Shown one piece after another: positions 4,526 through 33,008 of a stretch of DNA of 43,938 bases. Source of the DNA: a virus. Numbering within the stretch: position 1 is the stretch's first letter; every line of letters begins with the position of its first letter. A model generated the notes under the pieces. It worked only from the letters and a program-made list of their open reading frames with translations, had not been told where the DNA came from and ran no database searches. Position numbers and translations under genes: made by a program. The stretch covers positions 1 to 43,938 of IMG/VR virus record IMGVR_UViG_3300037247_001088. One strand, written 5' to 3'.

Positions 4526-5089
4526 ATGAGCGACCAGGGCGTGGAGCAGCCAGATTCCATCATCACTCGGTTGATTGAAGAGTTCAAAGATGATCCTGAG
4601 TATCTCAGAGAGAGAATAGCGATCCTGGAAGGAGAACTCGCCAAGGCCCAGGGCCAAGTTGATCTCCTGGTGGCTCATGGGCGAGCAGCTACCGAGCGGG
4701 AGCGCGTGCTGGAGCAGGGAGGGCAGGAGTTACAGACGTGCCATGACGCTGCGCATACAGCCCTCAATGACCTAGCGCATCCGGCAGCACAAGAGTACGA
4801 GATCGCTGTCTGGCGGTATGAGAGCGGAGTTCAGTTCGAAATGATCTTGGGTGAGCCGGTCACGTTCCCAGGTTTCGCGCAGAGGTTCTTCGTGCATACT
4901 TCTACCGACGATAAAGGGTATGCCGTGACGGAGGTGGCCTCAGGACACATGGTGGGAGCAGGGGAAAGCGAAGAGGAGGCCATCTTGGATACCTATGCAC
5001 GTCTCTCCAGTAAGGGATCGAAGGCTTTTGACGAAGTGGTACGCCTTGCGGTGAAACTATATAGGAGTGCAGCCCAGGAGCATGAGTGA
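4526..5089 (+). CDS. Early protein with N-terminal coiled coil, unknown function
   Basis: 187 aa from ATG 4526, which has AAGGAGG at ideal distance. Residues about 15-60 are heptad-like and acidic (IEEFKDDPEYLRERIAILEGELAKAQ), then a second half resembling an alpha/beta domain (FFVHTSTDDKGYAVTEVASGHMV). Its ribosome site and first ten codons are nearly identical to those of the gene at 36812, so the two share a duplicated start module although the rest differs. Family not recognised. Confidence 0.65.
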   Translation: MSDQGVEQPDSIITRLIEEFKDDPEYLRERIAILEGELAKAQGQVDLLVAHGRAATERERVLEQGGQELQTCHDAAHTALNDLAHPAAQEYEIAVWRYESGVQFEMILGEPVTFPGFAQRFFVHTSTDDKGYAVTEVASGHMVGAGESEEEAILDTYARLSSKGSKAFDEVVRLAVKLYRSAAQEHE

Positions 5090-5340
5090 TGGGGGAAGGT
5101 AACAAGCGGCGTAAGCAGCGACTCAATCTAGCAGCTTTGCCAGGATGGAAAGCTGAGGCGTCATCGCTGCTTCGGGATGAACTTTGGAGAGGGTCGGATC
5201 CTAACTTGTCACGCGCACGTGAAATGGCAAGGCAGATAGTAATGCTTGTGGAAGAACTAGAGGAGCGAGCGCCCCGGGAGTCTACCCCACCACCAGTAGA
5301 TCAGCGAAGTCAAACGGCCTCGCATCCCGAAGAGCCATGA
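5089..5340 (+). CDS. Small basic/helical early protein, last of the rightward unit
   Basis: 83 aa. ATG 5089 has AGGAG eight bases upstream and overlaps the previous stop by one base. A Lys/Arg-rich start (GNKRRKQRLNLAALPGW) precedes a helix and a Pro/Ser-rich tail. The last 59 bases overlap, tail to tail, the end of the leftward peptidase frame, so this is where the two transcription units collide. Family unknown. Confidence 0.6.
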   Translation: MGEGNKRRKQRLNLAALPGWKAEASSLLRDELWRGSDPNLSRAREMARQIVMLVEELEERAPRESTPPPVDQRSQTASHPEEP

Positions 5341-5737
5341 CGTGGACGTGTGCACCGAAGGTAATCCCGCTCTCCCCGCTCTGGCCCAGGGCTCCTCCAG
5401 CTAACAATGCTTGCTTGGGACGCGCGGAGAGCCCGCTCAGATGGGCGTAGCCCGTAGAGAAGCCCAATGCTTCATGCCATACTTGCACATACGCCCCATA
5501 GGCTCCTGGGCTCGCCCAGACCGGCTCCAAGTATGTCACTGCGGGAGGCCAGCTAGCTGAGGCAATCACCACCACGCCGTCGGCCATCGCTAGAATGGGA
5601 GTACCTATAGGAGTAGCCCAATCGGTGCCGATGTGCTGATGCCAAGAATTTCCCCGATAGAGCGGGTCGTATCCGAAGGGCTGAGTCAGGGCGAAGTCAC
5701 CGTCGAAGGGCAGACGCAGAGGCTTCGCCCCTACGCT
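5282..5737 (-). CDS. M23 (LytM-type) peptidase domain, expressed by -1 frameshift
   Basis: The frame is open from 5752 but has no ATG, GTG or TTG until 5587, which lies after the catalytic HxxxD block. Read as the extension of the upstream hydrolase it gives 151 residues: PFDGDFALTQPFG, then HQHIGTDWATPIGTP with the zinc ligands His and Asp, GYAHLSGLS, and GAHVHV with the HxH ligand. All landmarks of zinc M23 endopeptidases, which cleave peptidoglycan cross-bridges, are present. The full fusion would be 574 aa, hydrolase plus peptidase. Confidence 0.82.
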   Translation of the reverse strand, partial: SVGAKPLRLPFDGDFALTQPFGYDPLYRGNSWHQHIGTDWATPIGTPILAMADGVVVIASASWPPAVTYLEPVWASPGAYGAYVQVWHEALGFSTGYAHLSGLSARPKQALLAGGALGQSGESGITFGAHVHVMALRDARPFDFADLLVVG

Positions 5738-5743
5738 AAAGGG
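5689..5743 (-). promoter_or_regulatory. Programmed -1 ribosomal frameshift signal
   Basis: On the minus strand the zero frame reads ctC CCT TTA gcg TAG: a textbook X XXY YYZ heptamer (CCCTTTA, 5743-5737) two codons before the stop. After a 6-base spacer comes an 8-bp perfect stem, GGGCGAAG (5730-5723) with CTTCGCCC (5696-5689), whose 26-base loop can form a further CGTC/GACG pair. Slippage by -1 enters the peptidase frame directly. Confidence 0.75.
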
Positions 5744-7005
5744 AGCTCTTCCTCAGTGCGAGCGAAGCCCACATTAGCCCAATCACCCTTGAGGACGAAG
5801 GCGATGCCATCAGCGAAGTTCTGGGTGATGAATGGGCCATCCTCTACTTCAGGAGCAAGCGGCACACCCCAGTCATCATCCTCGGCTTGGGCCTTTTGCC
5901 AAGCGATCATGATGGCAGCCGTAGGATTGTAGCCCGCTGCACCGAATGTCTCGGCCCACCGGTCGTACACTTTGTGACGGTCATAGATTGACACAGGCTC
6001 CTCCGATGGCCCTGAGAGGGCAGGTAGACTAGAGATATAGATGTCGAGCTGGGCAAGGACAGGCTGGCCCCAGTGGGTATACTCGCCGTGATCCACGCCC
6101 TCGCTCTTGTAGAGGAAGACGGCACTGCCGATCAGGTTCTTGGCGTAGCGTGTCTGCAACTCGCGGTGGAAAAAGACGGCATCCATAGTGTACTCGAGAG
6201 GAATGTCCCTGCTGTTGTCTGGAGAATTCCACTCACCGATCAGGAGCTTCGTATCCGGGAAGATGGTCGCTGGACCGCCCGGGTCGTTGAACACGTCCTG
6301 CTCTACCAGGTCCTTGTACCCCTCCTCCCGCCACACGCGGAAGGCGAGCCACTCCGCCAAGGCATCTCTAAGACCCTCTCTCGGTGCCCACAGCCCCCAG
6401 TAGGAGTGTACAACCAGGACGATCTCACCAGGGCCAGGGCGCTGATATTTGACCACATCCCCAAGGAGCCCGTCCTGGTAGCCGTAGTAACCATCCTGGG
6501 CTACATCCGGCCCGTCCTCATGGTGGCCAGGGCTTAGAGCACAGACACCGATGTTGAGGGTGGGATCTATGGAATCGACGCCTCGGATGAACTCGATCTC
6601 CCAATCACGCATGGCCTTGTAGCCGTCATAGGACTCCCAATAGACTTGCCGCTCCCAGCTCCAGTGCCCTTCGCCCTCGAACTCATGGGCGTGTTCGTTG
6701 GCGAGGTTGGCTTCATTGATGCCGATGAGCCCGCCGAAGTTCTCGCCCCATATCTCCCGCACAATCACAGCATCCGCGGCCCGCTCCCGCCCGAACAGGA
6801 AGGGGTCGTGGGACATCGTATCGCGGTCGTAGTGGCGATACCAGAGTTGTGGACGGTCCGCCTCTGGCACGCTCTCATAGAGGCGCCAGTAGTAGTCCCA
6901 ATCTCCATTGAGCACCAAGAGTAGCTCGTGTTTGTGCCTCAGCAGGTCAGGGGCGTCACCCTGGACGCCGTAGCCGATAAGTGGTCTATTATAAAGTAGT
7001 GGCAT
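5731..7005 (-). CDS. Clan GH-A-like glycoside hydrolase, cell-wall lysin
   Basis: 424 aa when terminated at TAG 5731; it extends into the peptidase by frameshift. A TIM-barrel clan GH-A signature is seen: GLIGINEANLANEH with the Asn-Glu acid/base pair (N97-E98), VHSYWG near 199-204, and LLIGEWNSPD with a likely nucleophile Glu at 258. Aromatic-rich segments fit carbohydrate binding. Given its place at the end of the virion/lysis unit and the attached M23 domain, it probably attacks peptidoglycan or surface sugar, either as endolysin or virion lysin. ATG 7005 is preferred over TTG 7008 because GGAGGTGAG lies six bases upstream. Confidence 0.78.
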   Translation of the reverse strand: MPLLYNRPLIGYGVQGDAPDLLRHKHELLLVLNGDWDYYWRLYESVPEADRPQLWYRHYDRDTMSHDPFLFGRERAADAVIVREIWGENFGGLIGINEANLANEHAHEFEGEGHWSWERQVYWESYDGYKAMRDWEIEFIRGVDSIDPTLNIGVCALSPGHHEDGPDVAQDGYYGYQDGLLGDVVKYQRPGPGEIVLVVHSYWGLWAPREGLRDALAEWLAFRVWREEGYKDLVEQDVFNDPGGPATIFPDTKLLIGEWNSPDNSRDIPLEYTMDAVFFHRELQTRYAKNLIGSAVFLYKSEGVDHGEYTHWGQPVLAQLDIYISSLPALSGPSEEPVSIYDRHKVYDRWAETFGAAGYNPTAAIMIAWQKAQAEDDDWGVPLAPEVEDGPFITQNFADGIAFVLKGDWANVGFARTEEELPLA

Positions 7006-8054: not shown

Positions 8055-9262
8055 CATCTCGCCTCACTCCACTGAGTTGAACCATAGACGTTCGCGTTAC
8101 CGCTGAAACTCGTTACTACCAAGCTGATAGGCGTGGGGTTGGCACCTCCTATATCAAGGGTCAAGCGCAGTTGTCGTGTGATCTCGGCGGCTGCCTCAGA
8201 GCCCTTGACTCCTCCACCAGCAACAAGGAAGCCACTATCCAGCACGATTCCCCCACTGATCGCCGAGGCTGCGATGTCTCTCTGCATCCCACTACTAGCA
8301 TTCACGTCAGCGAAACTAGGATTCGTGAGAGTGCCGTCGAAGACGATTTCCCAAAGTATCGTCTTGTCCACTGATAGTATTTCGAACGCTTCTGGCAACA
8401 TCTCGGAGCGATTAGGGATGCTGTTGAAAGTGGTCTTTGGCTGGATAGAAAGGATCGGTAGGGGTGTTGTTCCTACGGTGGTTCGAGCGGTGGTCCCTGT
8501 ATTTGCACTGAAGAGAAGCGCTCTCTCCATGTCGGCACCACCCTCGGATATGACAGTTTGACAGATTTGGAGCAACTCAGCGGCTCCAGCCAACCCAGCC
8601 TTCGCTGTGATCTCATACCGTAGCGGTAGGTTCGCCGTCGTCATATAGGGAACGGTCAGGACGTTGGCATTCTTGAACTCATGGGCGTAGTAAAGCATCC
8701 CGTCAATATCAAAGCCGACCCGCACACGCCCCACACTCAACCACTGAAGGTCAATTACGAGGATCTGCGTCTTGGTTAGATCGAGTGTCACGCCCGATGG
8801 CCCCGACCCGTCCAGCGCGTCGATGTTCCAGTCCGCTTGCGCTGCTTCATCGTCCACGACAGAACCGGTCGCCTTGCTCCTTCGCACGACGTTGACAGTG
8901 GTGTCATCGATCTCCAGAAAGATACCGTTCTCGGCGTCGAAGTAGCCCACACGCTGGCGCAGGTTGGCCGCAGCCGTGGCGAAAAGAAAGGTCATGGCGA
9001 TGAATTGGGACTTCCCGGGCTGGTAGCGGAGATAGCGTCGGGTCTGCCTGATTACCTCATCGCCGCTCGCTGTAGTCACGTCCAGTTCAACGGCGGACTT
9101 GTTGGCATTATGGCTAATAGAGCCACTCCCTGATGTGGCGGTCAGCCACAGCAATGGCTGCCCATCGTATTCCATCTGCGAGGTGAAGATGGTGACGGGG
9201 GAACTAACCCTAAGCCGCGCGAAGGCGTCCCGTGCCGAGAGGAGTTCAGAAATAAGACTCAT
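8054..9262 (-). CDS. Virion structural / appendage protein
   Basis: 402 aa. The N-terminal block SARDAFARLRVSSPVTIF, then TRRYLRYQPGKSQFIAMTF and QRVGYFDAENGIFLEI, then a beta-rich remainder with many Gly/Thr/Ser, has the look of a capsid- or tail-associated appendage protein seen in environmental phages. There is no enzymatic motif. It follows the other tail/appendage genes and precedes lysis genes. Exact position in the virion is unknown. Confidence 0.62.
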   Translation of the reverse strand: MSLISELLSARDAFARLRVSSPVTIFTSQMEYDGQPLLWLTATSGSGSISHNANKSAVELDVTTASGDEVIRQTRRYLRYQPGKSQFIAMTFLFATAAANLRQRVGYFDAENGIFLEIDDTTVNVVRRSKATGSVVDDEAAQADWNIDALDGSGPSGVTLDLTKTQILVIDLQWLSVGRVRVGFDIDGMLYYAHEFKNANVLTVPYMTTANLPLRYEITAKAGLAGAAELLQICQTVISEGGADMERALLFSANTGTTARTTVGTTPLPILSIQPKTTFNSIPNRSEMLPEAFEILSVDKTILWEIVFDGTLTNPSFADVNASSGMQRDIAASAISGGIVLDSGFLVAGGGVKGSEAAAEITRQLRLTLDIGGANPTPISLVVTSFSGNANVYGSTQWSEAR

Positions 9263-20022: not shown

Positions 20023-20970
20023 TTATGCTGCCGAGTCAATCCCGCCCAGAGCCACAAGTGCCTTGGTGCTCCACAGCGCGGAGCCTAGATAGACCACCAT
20101 GCGGTAGAGGTTCTCGTTTCTCTTCTCCTTGATCCCGACGTTCTGGAAGTCGGGGGTCAGGACAGTACCGTTGTGCATGAGGGTGAAGCCCTCCTTGACC
20201 AGCCCGAACTTCACAGGAAAGATGGTCGTCGCTGTGCTGGATGGCCAAGTGCTTGCGTCCGCATACTGCTCCGCATTCGTGATCCAGTCTGAGATCACGA
20301 TGGGGATATCGTTGTAGACAGTCACCTGTCGCCCGAACTCATCAATGCGGGTGGAAAGAATGCCAGAACCGGTCGCTCGTGCAAGAGCAGTGAGCTTTCG
20401 CCGCATGGTCTTGTTCATGAGCAAGATGTCCGGCGGGCCTGGTTCCACCTGATCGATCGCGTAGTCGAGACGGTCAAGAGTAAGTTCGGTCTCAGCAGTG
20501 CCAGGACCGTCCATCACACCGTCGTCCATAGCGATCATGCGGGTGAAGAGCCGGGCCATCTTGTCCAGCCCATCGAACTCTGTCCCCACGACCGCAGAGT
20601 CACCCTTGATGGTGAGTTGCGCGATCCGGCGAGAGATGGCCTTGCTCATACCCATCCGAGTGATGGCCTCTTGGTTGTTTACGTCGCTCCGGGTCTGGAG
20701 GACGTAGCGATCAAGAGGCGTTTGCACATAGACACGGGCCAAACTTGTGGAGCGCTGCGTGTAGGTCGGCTCGGTGTCCGAGAGGTCGGAGCCGACCGCT
20801 ACGGTAGTAGCCGTGGGCAGAGCAAGCTCCTGGTTGTAGGCCAGGGCGTTGCCTTCCATCGTCTCGTACTGAAGGTGCTTCTGGAGCTGGTCTTCCGTGT
20901 AGATCGTCAGGAAGACACCCTTCTGTGTCTTTGTCTGTGAAAGTTTTGCGTATTCCGCAAGGGTCGGCAT
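20023..20970 (-). CDS. Major capsid protein (HK97-fold)
   Basis: 315 aa. Typical major capsid features: N-terminal arm MPTLAEYAKLSQTKTQKGVFLTIYTEDQLQKHLQYETMEGNALAY, a segment with TYTQRSTSLARVYVQTPLDRYVLQ, a helical spine (EAITRMGMSKAISRRIAQLTIKGD), and LLMNKTMRRKLTALAR followed by TVYNDIPIVISDW, conserved in this capsid class. It follows the scaffold gene directly and precedes the decoration-like gene. GGAGG lies upstream of ATG 20970. It would self-assemble into the icosahedral shell. Confidence 0.85.
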   Translation of the reverse strand: MPTLAEYAKLSQTKTQKGVFLTIYTEDQLQKHLQYETMEGNALAYNQELALPTATTVAVGSDLSDTEPTYTQRSTSLARVYVQTPLDRYVLQTRSDVNNQEAITRMGMSKAISRRIAQLTIKGDSAVVGTEFDGLDKMARLFTRMIAMDDGVMDGPGTAETELTLDRLDYAIDQVEPGPPDILLMNKTMRRKLTALARATGSGILSTRIDEFGRQVTVYNDIPIVISDWITNAEQYADASTWPSSTATTIFPVKFGLVKEGFTLMHNGTVLTPDFQNVGIKEKRNENLYRMVVYLGSALWSTKALVALGGIDSAA

Positions 20971-27453: not shown

Positions 27454-28685
27454 CGCTGCCCTCCGAAGCCCGCTGTCCTCCCGACCGGCCGTAGTCCACT
27501 CCTCAGTCGATCCCAGAAGAATTGCTGTTCCCCCGGTGATACCCCGCTCTCTACCGCTACACGTTCCTGGAAGCTCGCTCGTTCCACCGGACTCATGCGG
27601 GCCTGGGCCTGGGCCCCAGGGGTTCGCAGAGAGCCCGCAGGAGCGCCGCTGGGCCCGCTCAGGAAGGGCCTGCCAAGTGGCTCGCCCCGCCTGATAGCAG
27701 CCTGGAATGGGGCCACGGGCACGGTCTCTAGGGCTTCTTGTGGTGTCTGGCCCGTAGTCAGCGACAGATAAGCCAGAGGGTTGCCAGCCCTAGCCGCTTG
27801 AATAGCGGATTGCTCACGTTCCAAGCCCAACCGCTGCCGTGACAGGTCTAGCTGAGCCGATTGGAATTCTGTAAGGCCGCCCCCGCCGAGTAGTCCCAAG
27901 CCAAGTGCATCTTGTAGGCCCTGCTGGTACTGTTCCTCAGTAATGTCGCCTCGCTGGAACGCTGAGAGTAGGTTCGCCGCTCGACCAGAGAACGCCTGGC
28001 CCCCGCCTCCATCGCCAAGAAAGAGCTGCTGACGACGGTTTGTAAGTTGTCTCAGATAGGTCTCTAAGGCAGTGCGGGTCTCGCTGGAAGCCGGCGGGAG
28101 AGCGCCAATCCGCACCGTTACAGTTTCGATCTCATCGTCCAGCGCAGCCACTTCATTGGTAAGCGCACCCGTAGCCCCTCCGCGCTGTATGACTCGGGTT
28201 GGATCGCCACCGAACGCCCCAGGCAAAACAAACGATTCGGGGTGAGCCTCCTCTGTAATCGGGTCAATGATCGATACACCCCTTCTCTCCTGCCCGCCAC
28301 CACCAAACCCTCCCGTCGGAGTCGGAGTCACTGGAGGTGCTTCTGGCTCACCACCACCGCCGAACAACCCTCCCAAGAACTCACCCACCTGGCCCAAGAG
28401 CCCAACCCCCCCGGTAGGCTCAGGGGCGGGCGCGGGCTGTGAGTAGGTAGCTTCCTGGCGATTGAGGGCAGCCATTGCTGCCTCGTCCCCACCAAGAGCA
28501 GCGAACGCTAGACTGCGCAAGCTGTTGATGGCCTCTTGTGCTTGCTCTGGAGGAATATGCCCGTTCCTTACGCCAATATCCACCAGATCACGAATGCCCT
28601 GCTCCTGCTCCGGAGTAAGCGGCCCCCCTGGGTTTTGAGGGAAGAACCGCAAGGGTTGCTGTCGTCCGAACTGTAGGTGGGCCAT
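27450..28685 (-). CDS. Putative internal virion protein, Gly/Gln-rich
   Basis: 411 aa from ATG 28685 (TGATG overlap). N-terminus helical (LTPEQEQGIRDLVDIGVRNGHIPPEQAQEAINSL), then Gly/Pro-rich low-complexity segments (EFLGGLFGGGGEPEAPP; GGFGGGGQERRG), then helical repeats rich in Gln/Ala (NLLSAFQRGDITEEQYQQGLQDALG; LDLSRQRLGLEREQSAIQAARAG). Composition and position between portal and the giant protein suggest an internal or ejection protein. No family recognised. Confidence 0.6.
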   Translation of the reverse strand: MAHLQFGRQQPLRFFPQNPGGPLTPEQEQGIRDLVDIGVRNGHIPPEQAQEAINSLRSLAFAALGGDEAAMAALNRQEATYSQPAPAPEPTGGVGLLGQVGEFLGGLFGGGGEPEAPPVTPTPTGGFGGGGQERRGVSIIDPITEEAHPESFVLPGAFGGDPTRVIQRGGATGALTNEVAALDDEIETVTVRIGALPPASSETRTALETYLRQLTNRRQQLFLGDGGGGQAFSGRAANLLSAFQRGDITEEQYQQGLQDALGLGLLGGGGLTEFQSAQLDLSRQRLGLEREQSAIQAARAGNPLAYLSLTTGQTPQEALETVPVAPFQAAIRRGEPLGRPFLSGPSGAPAGSLRTPGAQAQARMSPVERASFQERVAVESGVSPGEQQFFWDRLRSGLRPVGRTAGFGGQR

Positions 28686-29020
28686 CAAGCCATCCCCACC
28701 TTTCCCCACCTATAGACCTCTCTCATTCCTTCTCGACTCCAGGTCCACATAGAATAATCCTCTTCATATTCATCTCGCACAAGAAGCTGCACACTGTCTG
28801 GAAGTCGCCAGTTTACTCGACCCACAACCCGTAACAGTCCAGAGATGTCTAGTCTAGGATGGCCGTCGAAACGTCCCATGTAAACCGCTCCGGCAACCAA
28901 GGTACTATCAGCCCCAACAGAGTTTACATCAGTAAGGAAGTGAGAAAGCCATTGCTGAATGTCGTCAATCGACTCTATGCCCGAGCACAAGAGAATGACA
29001 TTGGTATCCCAGCTCATCAT
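28685..29020 (-). CDS. Small virion-region protein, unknown
   Basis: About 111 aa (ATG 29020 or 29017). SWDTNVILLCSGIESIDDIQQWL and a later VGRVNWRLPDSVQLLVRDEYEEDYSMWTWSREG look like a compact alpha/beta fold with Trp-rich end. I have no family name. It is coupled on both sides. Confidence 0.58.
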   Translation of the reverse strand: MMSWDTNVILLCSGIESIDDIQQWLSHFLTDVNSVGADSTLVAGAVYMGRFDGHPRLDISGLLRVVGRVNWRLPDSVQLLVRDEYEEDYSMWTWSREGMREVYRWGKVGMA

Positions 29021-31415: not shown

Positions 31416-33008
31416 TCACCCAACATAACTGGTCACCTTGACTCCCTGACCGCTGGCCCGCACCGCTGGGACTCTACGACCTTGCCATGCCAGAGCCAGT
31501 GCCATAACGCGATCGTCATGCCTACCTTCTCGCGCCTCCATCTTGTTGCCTTTATGGATGAAGGTACCTAGCTCCCCTATTGTATCAGCATCCCAGAGAT
31601 TGAGATAGCCGTCCGTCAGCGCTTCGTTCAGGTCTGCTATCGCATTGCGCTTCGTCCTCTCGTCTGTGTGCCACCCTGGGAGTTTCGGTTGCTCTCCTCT
31701 CGCCGCCGCCTCTTGCCAATCACGGAAGTACATCTGATGAGCACGGCTAGGATACGCCGAAAGGAGCTTCTCAACAAGCTTCACTCCGACATAACCGTTC
31801 ACCTCCGGCACCAGCAACGCCTGATGATACATGTCGGCCAGGGCTAAGCAATGCGTGGCAAAGGCGTCCAAGTCCCACGTCGTGCAGTAAAGGCTGGCAG
31901 CAAGGGCTCCGTTGCTCAGATCGATAAGCTGTCCGCAGCTACCGTCCGCGCCGGTACCATACCCAGGGTCCATCGCCAACACATAGCGTGAGCCCAGCGT
32001 TGGTCTGCGCCATACCTTCAGTAAGCCTTGACCTAGATCAAGCTTGTTGAGAGTCGTCAGCGTCTCGAACGGAGGCATGGCATTATCACGCTTGCGCTGA
32101 ACCATCGCAGCGTCAAAGACGATGTTGATAGCTGTCATGCGGAACGCTTCTACGTCGTTTCGTGGATAGTTCTCGTAAAACTCCCCCGGCAAACCCTCAT
32201 AGCTGGCCTTGGTGTCTTCCCACCACCGCTCGTCACGACCTGGACGCTCATGGTAGGGCAGAAAGAGATGGAGAAAGCCAGCAAGCCTCCCTTGCTTGGC
32301 TAGCTCCCACCGCGGTTGTACATAATCATCGTCGCCCCAGGCGGTAGAATACTCGATAAGCTCCGCATCACCCTCTTCGATTGCTGGGGCGACGGCAGCG
32401 TAGTTGTCTGCGGCGTACCGGTGCTTGGCTAGCTCGTCACGGGATACGAGCGTTGCGGAGTACCCCGAGCCCGCTTTGGCCGTGCTGGGGAGAGCTCGTA
32501 CCAACGAGTCAACACCAGGTCGCCCGTTCTTGAGCACTGCGGGGAACTCCAGGTCCCCGTTGTTGTTGCGCCCGATCTCCATGCGCATCCATTCCGGTAA
32601 GTGGTCGTGGATGTATCGCACCCGCTCCAACTGATACGCTGCTTCGTCCTCTCCCTGACTGATAATCAGGACCCGCGCGCTTGGGGTGAACATCGCCACC
32701 CAGCAGCAGTACGCCGCATTCAGCCAGCTAAGCCCTAGTTGGCGGGCCTTGAGGATGAGCCGCTTCCGGCAGCGCTTGTCCTCAAGGAGAGCGAGAACCT
32801 TCTCCTGGCCTGGCCAGAGAGGAAGGATGGGAATAGGCTCGGCGAGGGCTTGGCCTGGGGCTACCTGGGGCTGGATGTAGACGTATTGGAGGAAGTATCG
32901 GAACGAGTAGGCGCAAGCTCCTATCTCGTCGAACTGCTCACGGGTCTTACCCTCAGTCGCCACGCTTTCTGTTCCGATACGCTCGTTGGCGCTCTGCGTT
33001 CGTCCCAT
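31416..33008 (-). CDS. terL: Terminase large subunit (packaging ATPase/nuclease)
   Basis: 530 aa. Walker A-like KARQLGLS (87-94) in LILKARQLGLSWLNAAYC, a following VLIISQGEDEAAYQLE, a Walker B/coupling region (SATLVSRDEL), and the nuclease signature LAMDPGYGTGADGSCGQL (about 325-342) with the first catalytic Asp. It drives DNA into the procapsid and cuts the concatemer. ATG 33008 is supported by GGGAGG eight bases upstream, giving a 56-base overlap with the small gene before it; GTG 32963 is a weaker alternative. Confidence 0.9.
   Translation of the reverse strand: MGRTQSANERIGTESVATEGKTREQFDEIGACAYSFRYFLQYVYIQPQVAPGQALAEPIPILPLWPGQEKVLALLEDKRCRKRLILKARQLGLSWLNAAYCCWVAMFTPSARVLIISQGEDEAAYQLERVRYIHDHLPEWMRMEIGRNNNGDLEFPAVLKNGRPGVDSLVRALPSTAKAGSGYSATLVSRDELAKHRYAADNYAAVAPAIEEGDAELIEYSTAWGDDDYVQPRWELAKQGRLAGFLHLFLPYHERPGRDERWWEDTKASYEGLPGEFYENYPRNDVEAFRMTAINIVFDAAMVQRKRDNAMPPFETLTTLNKLDLGQGLLKVWRRPTLGSRYVLAMDPGYGTGADGSCGQLIDLSNGALAASLYCTTWDLDAFATHCLALADMYHQALLVPEVNGYVGVKLVEKLLSAYPSRAHQMYFRDWQEAAARGEQPKLPGWHTDERTKRNAIADLNEALTDGYLNLWDADTIGELGTFIHKGNKMEAREGRHDDRVMALALAWQGRRVPAVRASGQGVKVTSYVG

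Follow-up and report, generated by a model that had tools for sequence, protein, structure and literature searches.

Most known cases of programmed frameshifting in tailed phages come from tail and capsid genes, whereas lysins made in two isoforms are known mainly from internal start codons. The lambda-type tail assembly chaperones (gpG/gpGT) and the IS3-family transposases share with the locus described here a slippery heptamer near the end of the upstream ORF, a downstream structure and a -1 extension that carries another domain (PMC5009743, PMC4066793). Those sites are conserved in many genomes and have been tested, whereas the present site comes from one sequence, lies in a lysin gene and has a lower-efficiency heptamer. 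Among lysins the nearest parallel is Ply2638A (M23-amidase-SH3b), which is accompanied by a short form without M23, i.e. one gene gives a lysin with and without this peptidase, as proposed here; both forms aid lysis in phi2638A (PMC12203907). The isoforms of Ply2638A, however, arise by internal initiation in frame, and its M23 domain is N-terminal, whereas here M23 would be attached at the C-terminus by frameshifting. An identical heptamer, the CCCUUUA of the Giardiavirus CP/RdRp site, has been proposed for -1 frameshifting, but this is a eukaryotic dsRNA virus and its frameshift proposal is disputed (PMC8230311). If the reading given below is true, a lysin whose two forms arise by frameshifting joins both themes and is an unusual route to a two-headed lysin. 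The candidate novelty lies in this combination, programmed frameshifting and dual-isoform lysins each being already known; a partial literature search found no report of a dual-form lysin made by frameshifting.

The window is the complete 43.9-kb linear virus record IMGVR_UViG_3300037247_001088, which comes from an uncultured phage and is represented by one sequence only. An initial annotation had proposed that a -1 frameshift signal at 5689-5743 fuses a glycoside hydrolase to an M23 peptidase, and every element it named, from the slippery C CCT TTA through the 6-base spacer to the perfect 8-bp stem, is present on the minus strand (Table 1). The 3' end of the hydrolase-like gene, ORF1, reads GAG GAA GAG CTC CCT TTA GCG TAG, with the stop two codons past the TTA of the heptamer. 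Upstream, TGA 5755-5753 bounds the -1 frame, which ends at TAG 5284-5282; being open only from 5752, it confines any slip to about seven codons, and it is here, where a -1 shift could work, that the heptamer and stem lie. The predicted slip product runs ...EEELPL-SVGAKPLRLPFDGDFALTQPFG... at the junction and continues into a complete M23 peptidase of 151 residues. Product masses first given as 47 and 64 kDa are corrected to ∼48.5 and 64.4 kDa when counted from TTG (7008), although the most likely start of ORF1 is ATG 7005 and not this TTG. A competing hairpin of 10 bp (GCGTAGGGGC / GCCTCTGCGT, loop GAA) at 5736-5714 lies directly 3' of the heptamer and spans the stop codon and AGGGG. The end of the M23 frame (5282-5340) overlaps, tail to tail, a plus-strand ORF at 5086-5340. 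A search of Rfam gave no match for the junction.

Table 1. Features at the junction of ORF1 and the M23 frame (positions are those of the window).
Feature	Position	Strand	Remark
ORF1 (424 aa), putative hydrolase-like TIM barrel followed by C-terminal domain	5731..7005	-	ATG 7005, TAG 5733-5731; SD GGAGG 5' of ATG
C-terminal domain, Chloroflexota lysin type (YNP..AA...GDWANV)	5770..5973, approximate	-
SD-like GAGGAAGAG 5' of heptamer	5746..5754	-	possible stimulator, or relic of M23 ribosome-binding site
Slippery heptamer C_CCT_TTA	5737..5743	-	in phase within ORF1
Spacer GCGTAG, 6 nt	5731..5736	-	includes 0-frame stop TAG 5733-5731
Stem 5' arm GGGCGAAG	5723..5730	-	8 bp, perfect
Stem 3' arm CTTCGCCC	5689..5696	-	pairs with GGGCGAAG; loop 26 nt
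Open frame of M23 peptidase, in -1 to ORF1	5282..5752	-	151 aa when read from 5737 after slip
CTG, candidate non-canonical start of free M23	5717..5719	-	SD-like AGGGG (within TAGGGG 5733-5728) 8 nt upstream; putative

The putative glycoside hydrolase assignment of ORF1 draws some support from remote homologues and from a low-confidence structure model, though not from any sequence match in Pfam, PHROG, NCBIfam or the PDB. The homologues are L051, reached through M23 loci, and from it L053 and L096; their hydrolase part, with GxNE and GE motifs, is N-terminal, and a domain with YNP..AA...GDWxN forms the C-terminus. Clan GH-A-like hydrolases are TIM barrels with one Glu after strand 4 and another at strand 7; ORF1 carries GINEAN at residue 96 and GEWN at residue 257. 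A model built from a 14-member alignment (pLDDT 57) has, at this low confidence, the TIM-barrel order of elements, and its best structural matches are glycoside hydrolase barrels including Cwp19, all of them weak (TM 0.3-0.4). A single-sequence prediction was discarded (pLDDT 32). The C-terminal domain probably binds the cell wall. As a rule no further domain follows it in the chain, which speaks against an M23 extension behind it. From its GDW motif to the chain end there are about 8-12 residues in 30 of the 31 family ORFs compared, the exception (L110) having a second copy of the domain, and in ORF1 the distance to the stop is 15 residues, near this range. Since chains of the family end shortly after GDW, the 0-frame stop is the family's normal gene end rather than a truncation and, to judge from these comparisons, ORF1 is a complete member of its lysin family without M23.

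The same domain, ∼65 residues of the form YNP..AA...YARE..LG.P.T.E....GY..Q.F..GIVYA..GDWxN, closes many Chloroflexota lysin-like genes. Its carriers are the present record (5770-5973), L051, L053, L096, L098-L111 and L232, and the carrier proteins of this record, L051, L053, L096 and L232 had no match in Pfam; perhaps the domain binds the cell wall and has so far gone unnamed. At the Chloroflexota loci L100, L101, L103, L105 and L106, runs of two to four adjacent genes differ in their N-terminal parts and have this C-terminal domain in common.

The -1 frame itself encodes an M23 peptidase, as had been claimed: it matches PF01551 (E = 1.3e-15), shows the HxxxD...HxH ligand pattern, and retains all zinc ligands (H40, D44, H135, H137) and the YAH motif in alignment with nine other M23s. 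An alignment of all ten proved too diverse to serve as a search query, and a match to Vibrio phage pir03 across the junction was set aside because it involves the M23 part only, the upstream part not being homologous. What sets the frame apart is its start. The first ATG, GTG or TTG is codon 55, beyond HIGTD, in agreement with the earlier statement that no such codon precedes the catalytic HxxxD, while every one of 125 distinct M23 ORFs collected from phages and from other viral contigs has a canonical start ahead of its catalytic histidine. No other coding-like ORF across the 43.9 kb lacks a usable start, so the record does not look generally error-ridden. A peptidase that recently lost its start, is not made, and lies beside a slip signal formed by chance would agree with the codon-usage score of the frame, which is low (0.07 per codon, where ORF1 has 0.21), but 151 stop-free codons, the retention of all ligands and the low joint chance of the signal make such a pseudogene very improbable.

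An indel is the more serious concern: the modules may truly share one frame, or M23 may normally have its own start, and an assembly error or real mutation near 5743-5731 may have broken the frame. The canonical starts of all 125 other M23s and the arrangements in relatives (below), with a single frame in L204 and a proper M23 start in L053 and L096, speak in its favour, as does the M23 frame of another viral contig (L198, 2995-3183), which is cut off within the domain as a broken copy or assembly error and shows that broken copies do occur. Moreover, a base lost or gained in a short C/T run also leaves a slippery-looking sequence. Antonov et al. (2013, PMC3711429) accept a frame transition only if its site is shared by five or more homologous genes, and treat singletons by default as errors or pseudogenes; by this rule the present singleton cannot yet be called programmed. 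On the other hand, no other ORF in the window is broken, the runs are just CCC and TTT and not error-prone long homopolymers, ORF1 does not look truncated, and the coincidence of heptamer and stem would be left unexplained. We therefore consider an indel unlikely, but a contender to be taken seriously.

How far this coincidence exceeds chance was estimated from the record's own statistics. Of the 9677 codon positions of the whole record, 17 have an in-frame X_XXY_YYZ heptamer; given the peptide TEEELPLA and the codon usage of this phage, in which the TTA used in the heptamer makes up 2.6% of Leu codons, a heptamer of this form is expected with a probability of 1.4%. Perfect 8-bp stems that begin 5-9 nt downstream accompany 0.53% of coding positions. 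Heptamer and stem are thus expected jointly by chance about once in 10,000 (∼1e-4), a figure to be read with the post hoc choice of the features in mind. The energy of the stem gives z = -2.8 when the sequence is cut to the stem, but a milder z of only -1.3 to -2.1 (p 0.03-0.1) in fixed windows of 50-80 nt, and these modest fixed-window statistics count against frameshifting.

The search rules for bacterial -1 frameshifting of Sharma et al. (2014, PMC4066793) comprise the motif, a hairpin that begins 4-10 nt downstream, is closed by G-C pairs and has an energy above 7.6 kcal/mol, and an SD-like GAGG/AGGA 6-17 nt upstream. Motif, hairpin and SD-like element at the junction all conform, although the last of these alone has a chance base rate of 22%. 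Efficient bacterial slip sites, the best shifters in E. coli, have motifs with cognate A-site re-pairing, and this C_CCU_UUA does not offer, as UUA to UUU is not cognate. Natural frameshift sites also use low-efficiency motifs, cognate re-pairing being not strictly needed. By its sequence C_CCU_UUA falls among the less efficient bacterial sites and lies outside the best-shifting E. coli motifs, so that a low slip rate is expected unless the rare UUA and the stem raise it. Transcriptional slippage is ruled out by the longest run at the heptamer, which is three. The heptamer is in frame and inside the -1 overlap of two ORFs, the position expected of an X_XXY_YYZ (or Z_ZZN) motif in a programmed -1 frameshift gene, but this alone proves little, because the window holds a second such case: GGGAAAG, the lambda G/T heptamer, at 28706-28700 near the end of ORF 28685-29020. 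The gene downstream of it, however, can start at an ATG of its own (28685), preceded by GGTGGGG, and this heptamer is probably due to chance. The missing M23 start is thus the stronger part of the frameshift case.

Hydrolase and M23 modules were found in three arrangements, i.e. as two genes, as one frame and, in this record, in a -1 relation without a start. The two-gene phages L053 and L096 (IMG/VR 3300002220_000059 and _000476) have the three modules in the same order and at similar spacing as here but, unlike here, their M23 has its own ATG and the heptamer is absent. In L053 this ATG lies one base past the TGA of the hydrolase gene, and in L096 it follows the stop in the hydrolase gene's frame. 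Counted by hand, GDW and the conserved (R/K)P of M23 are separated by 46 nt in L053, 53 nt in this record and 66 nt in L096. One-frame versions exist in the same order in L204 (IMG/VR 3300048837_000830; hydrolase-SH3-M23) and in the opposite order, M23-hydrolase, in L051, L179, L182, L186 and L194, so a fused hydrolase/M23 is a natural kind of lysin. Because L204 has the catalytic modules in the order of the proposed fusion, that order is biologically sensible, but L204 is a single frame with another linker and binding domain. Two domains in one frame in relatives had been named as evidence against frameshifting; L204 is so arranged, while L053 and L096 have two genes instead. The conservation of heptamer and stem that was to be sought by alignment of related genomes did not materialize: the relatives found are all remote and none has the slip signal. 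The frameshift thus appears, on the sequences compared, neither ancestral nor conserved among them.

The two-gene phages also suggest a third alternative, a coupled non-AUG start, by which ribosomes that have terminated at TAG 5733 would restart at CTG 5719 and make a free M23 of ∼145 aa. Gene order and the GDW-to-(R/K)P spacing agree with this, the SD-like AGGGG is well positioned, and the CTG lies 28 codons before HIGTD, just under the ∼29-35 codons of natural short M23 lysins. CTG start codons are rare, however, and ATG, GTG or TTG is available to all other M23s and to the other coding-like genes of the window. When L053 is aligned by hand, the ancestral M23 start would fall on the CCC codon at 5743, now inside the heptamer, and not on the CTG. 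This alternative too leaves the heptamer and stem unexplained. We think a CTG start unlikely, slightly more so than an indel.

In our judgement -1 frameshifting at C_CCT_TTA that fuses M23 onto the ORF1 lysin is the best reading of the junction, with about an even chance of being right. The claim that the signal gives two lysins gains from conforming to the bacterial rules (PMC4066793) and from its rarity by chance, and loses by the missing cognate re-pairing and by its occurrence in a single sequence and in no relative. Most ribosomes would stop at TAG 5733 and make ORF1 alone, the normal lysin of its family, while a minority would slip back one base at C_CCU_UUA and continue into M23, helped by the downstream stem and perhaps also by the rarity of the UUA codon and the SD-like element 5' of the heptamer. 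In the long product two cutting domains of different bond specificity would flank the probable binding domain. The layout of the junction, the intact M23, its missing start, the excess over chance and the existence of both two-gene and one-frame versions of the module pair are shown; that ribosomes slip, how often they do so and that both products count in lysis is what we infer. More tentatively, and with slightly less than even confidence, we propose that programmed frameshifting adds M23 to a minority of lysin molecules and replaces the separate M23 gene of the relatives, the ratio being set by recoding. If true, the locus set next to its relatives shows phages moving among separate, recoded and fused versions of one module pair.

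A Chloroflexota host is likely for this phage, because matches to the ORF1 family occur in genomes of that type. A scan of a genome collection with ORF1 alone gave no match, but a four-member alignment retrieved 14 loci, labelled as MAGs of Chloroflexi, Anaerolinea and Caldilineaceae type, and 29 of 400 genomes of one such phylum had matches, mostly to the C-terminal domain. Searches of viral contigs turned up no close relative for any of ORF1, M23 and the terminase, and no second contig of the same phage population was found. L053, L096 and L051 are remote (20-30% in ORF1), and genome-wide kinship with these phages was rejected, as only the lysin module is held in common. A major head protein (phrog_212) is encoded at 20026-20970 and the terminase large subunit at 31419-33008, and the nearest terminases, e.g. 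that of Podoviridae sp. ct52p938, Manatee Spring, are ∼27-29% identical. The protein encoded at 8057-9262, in a phage otherwise without close relatives, shares 42% identity with a virion structural protein (phrog_1645) that occurs in cyanomyoviruses and in Puniceispirillum phage HMO-2011.
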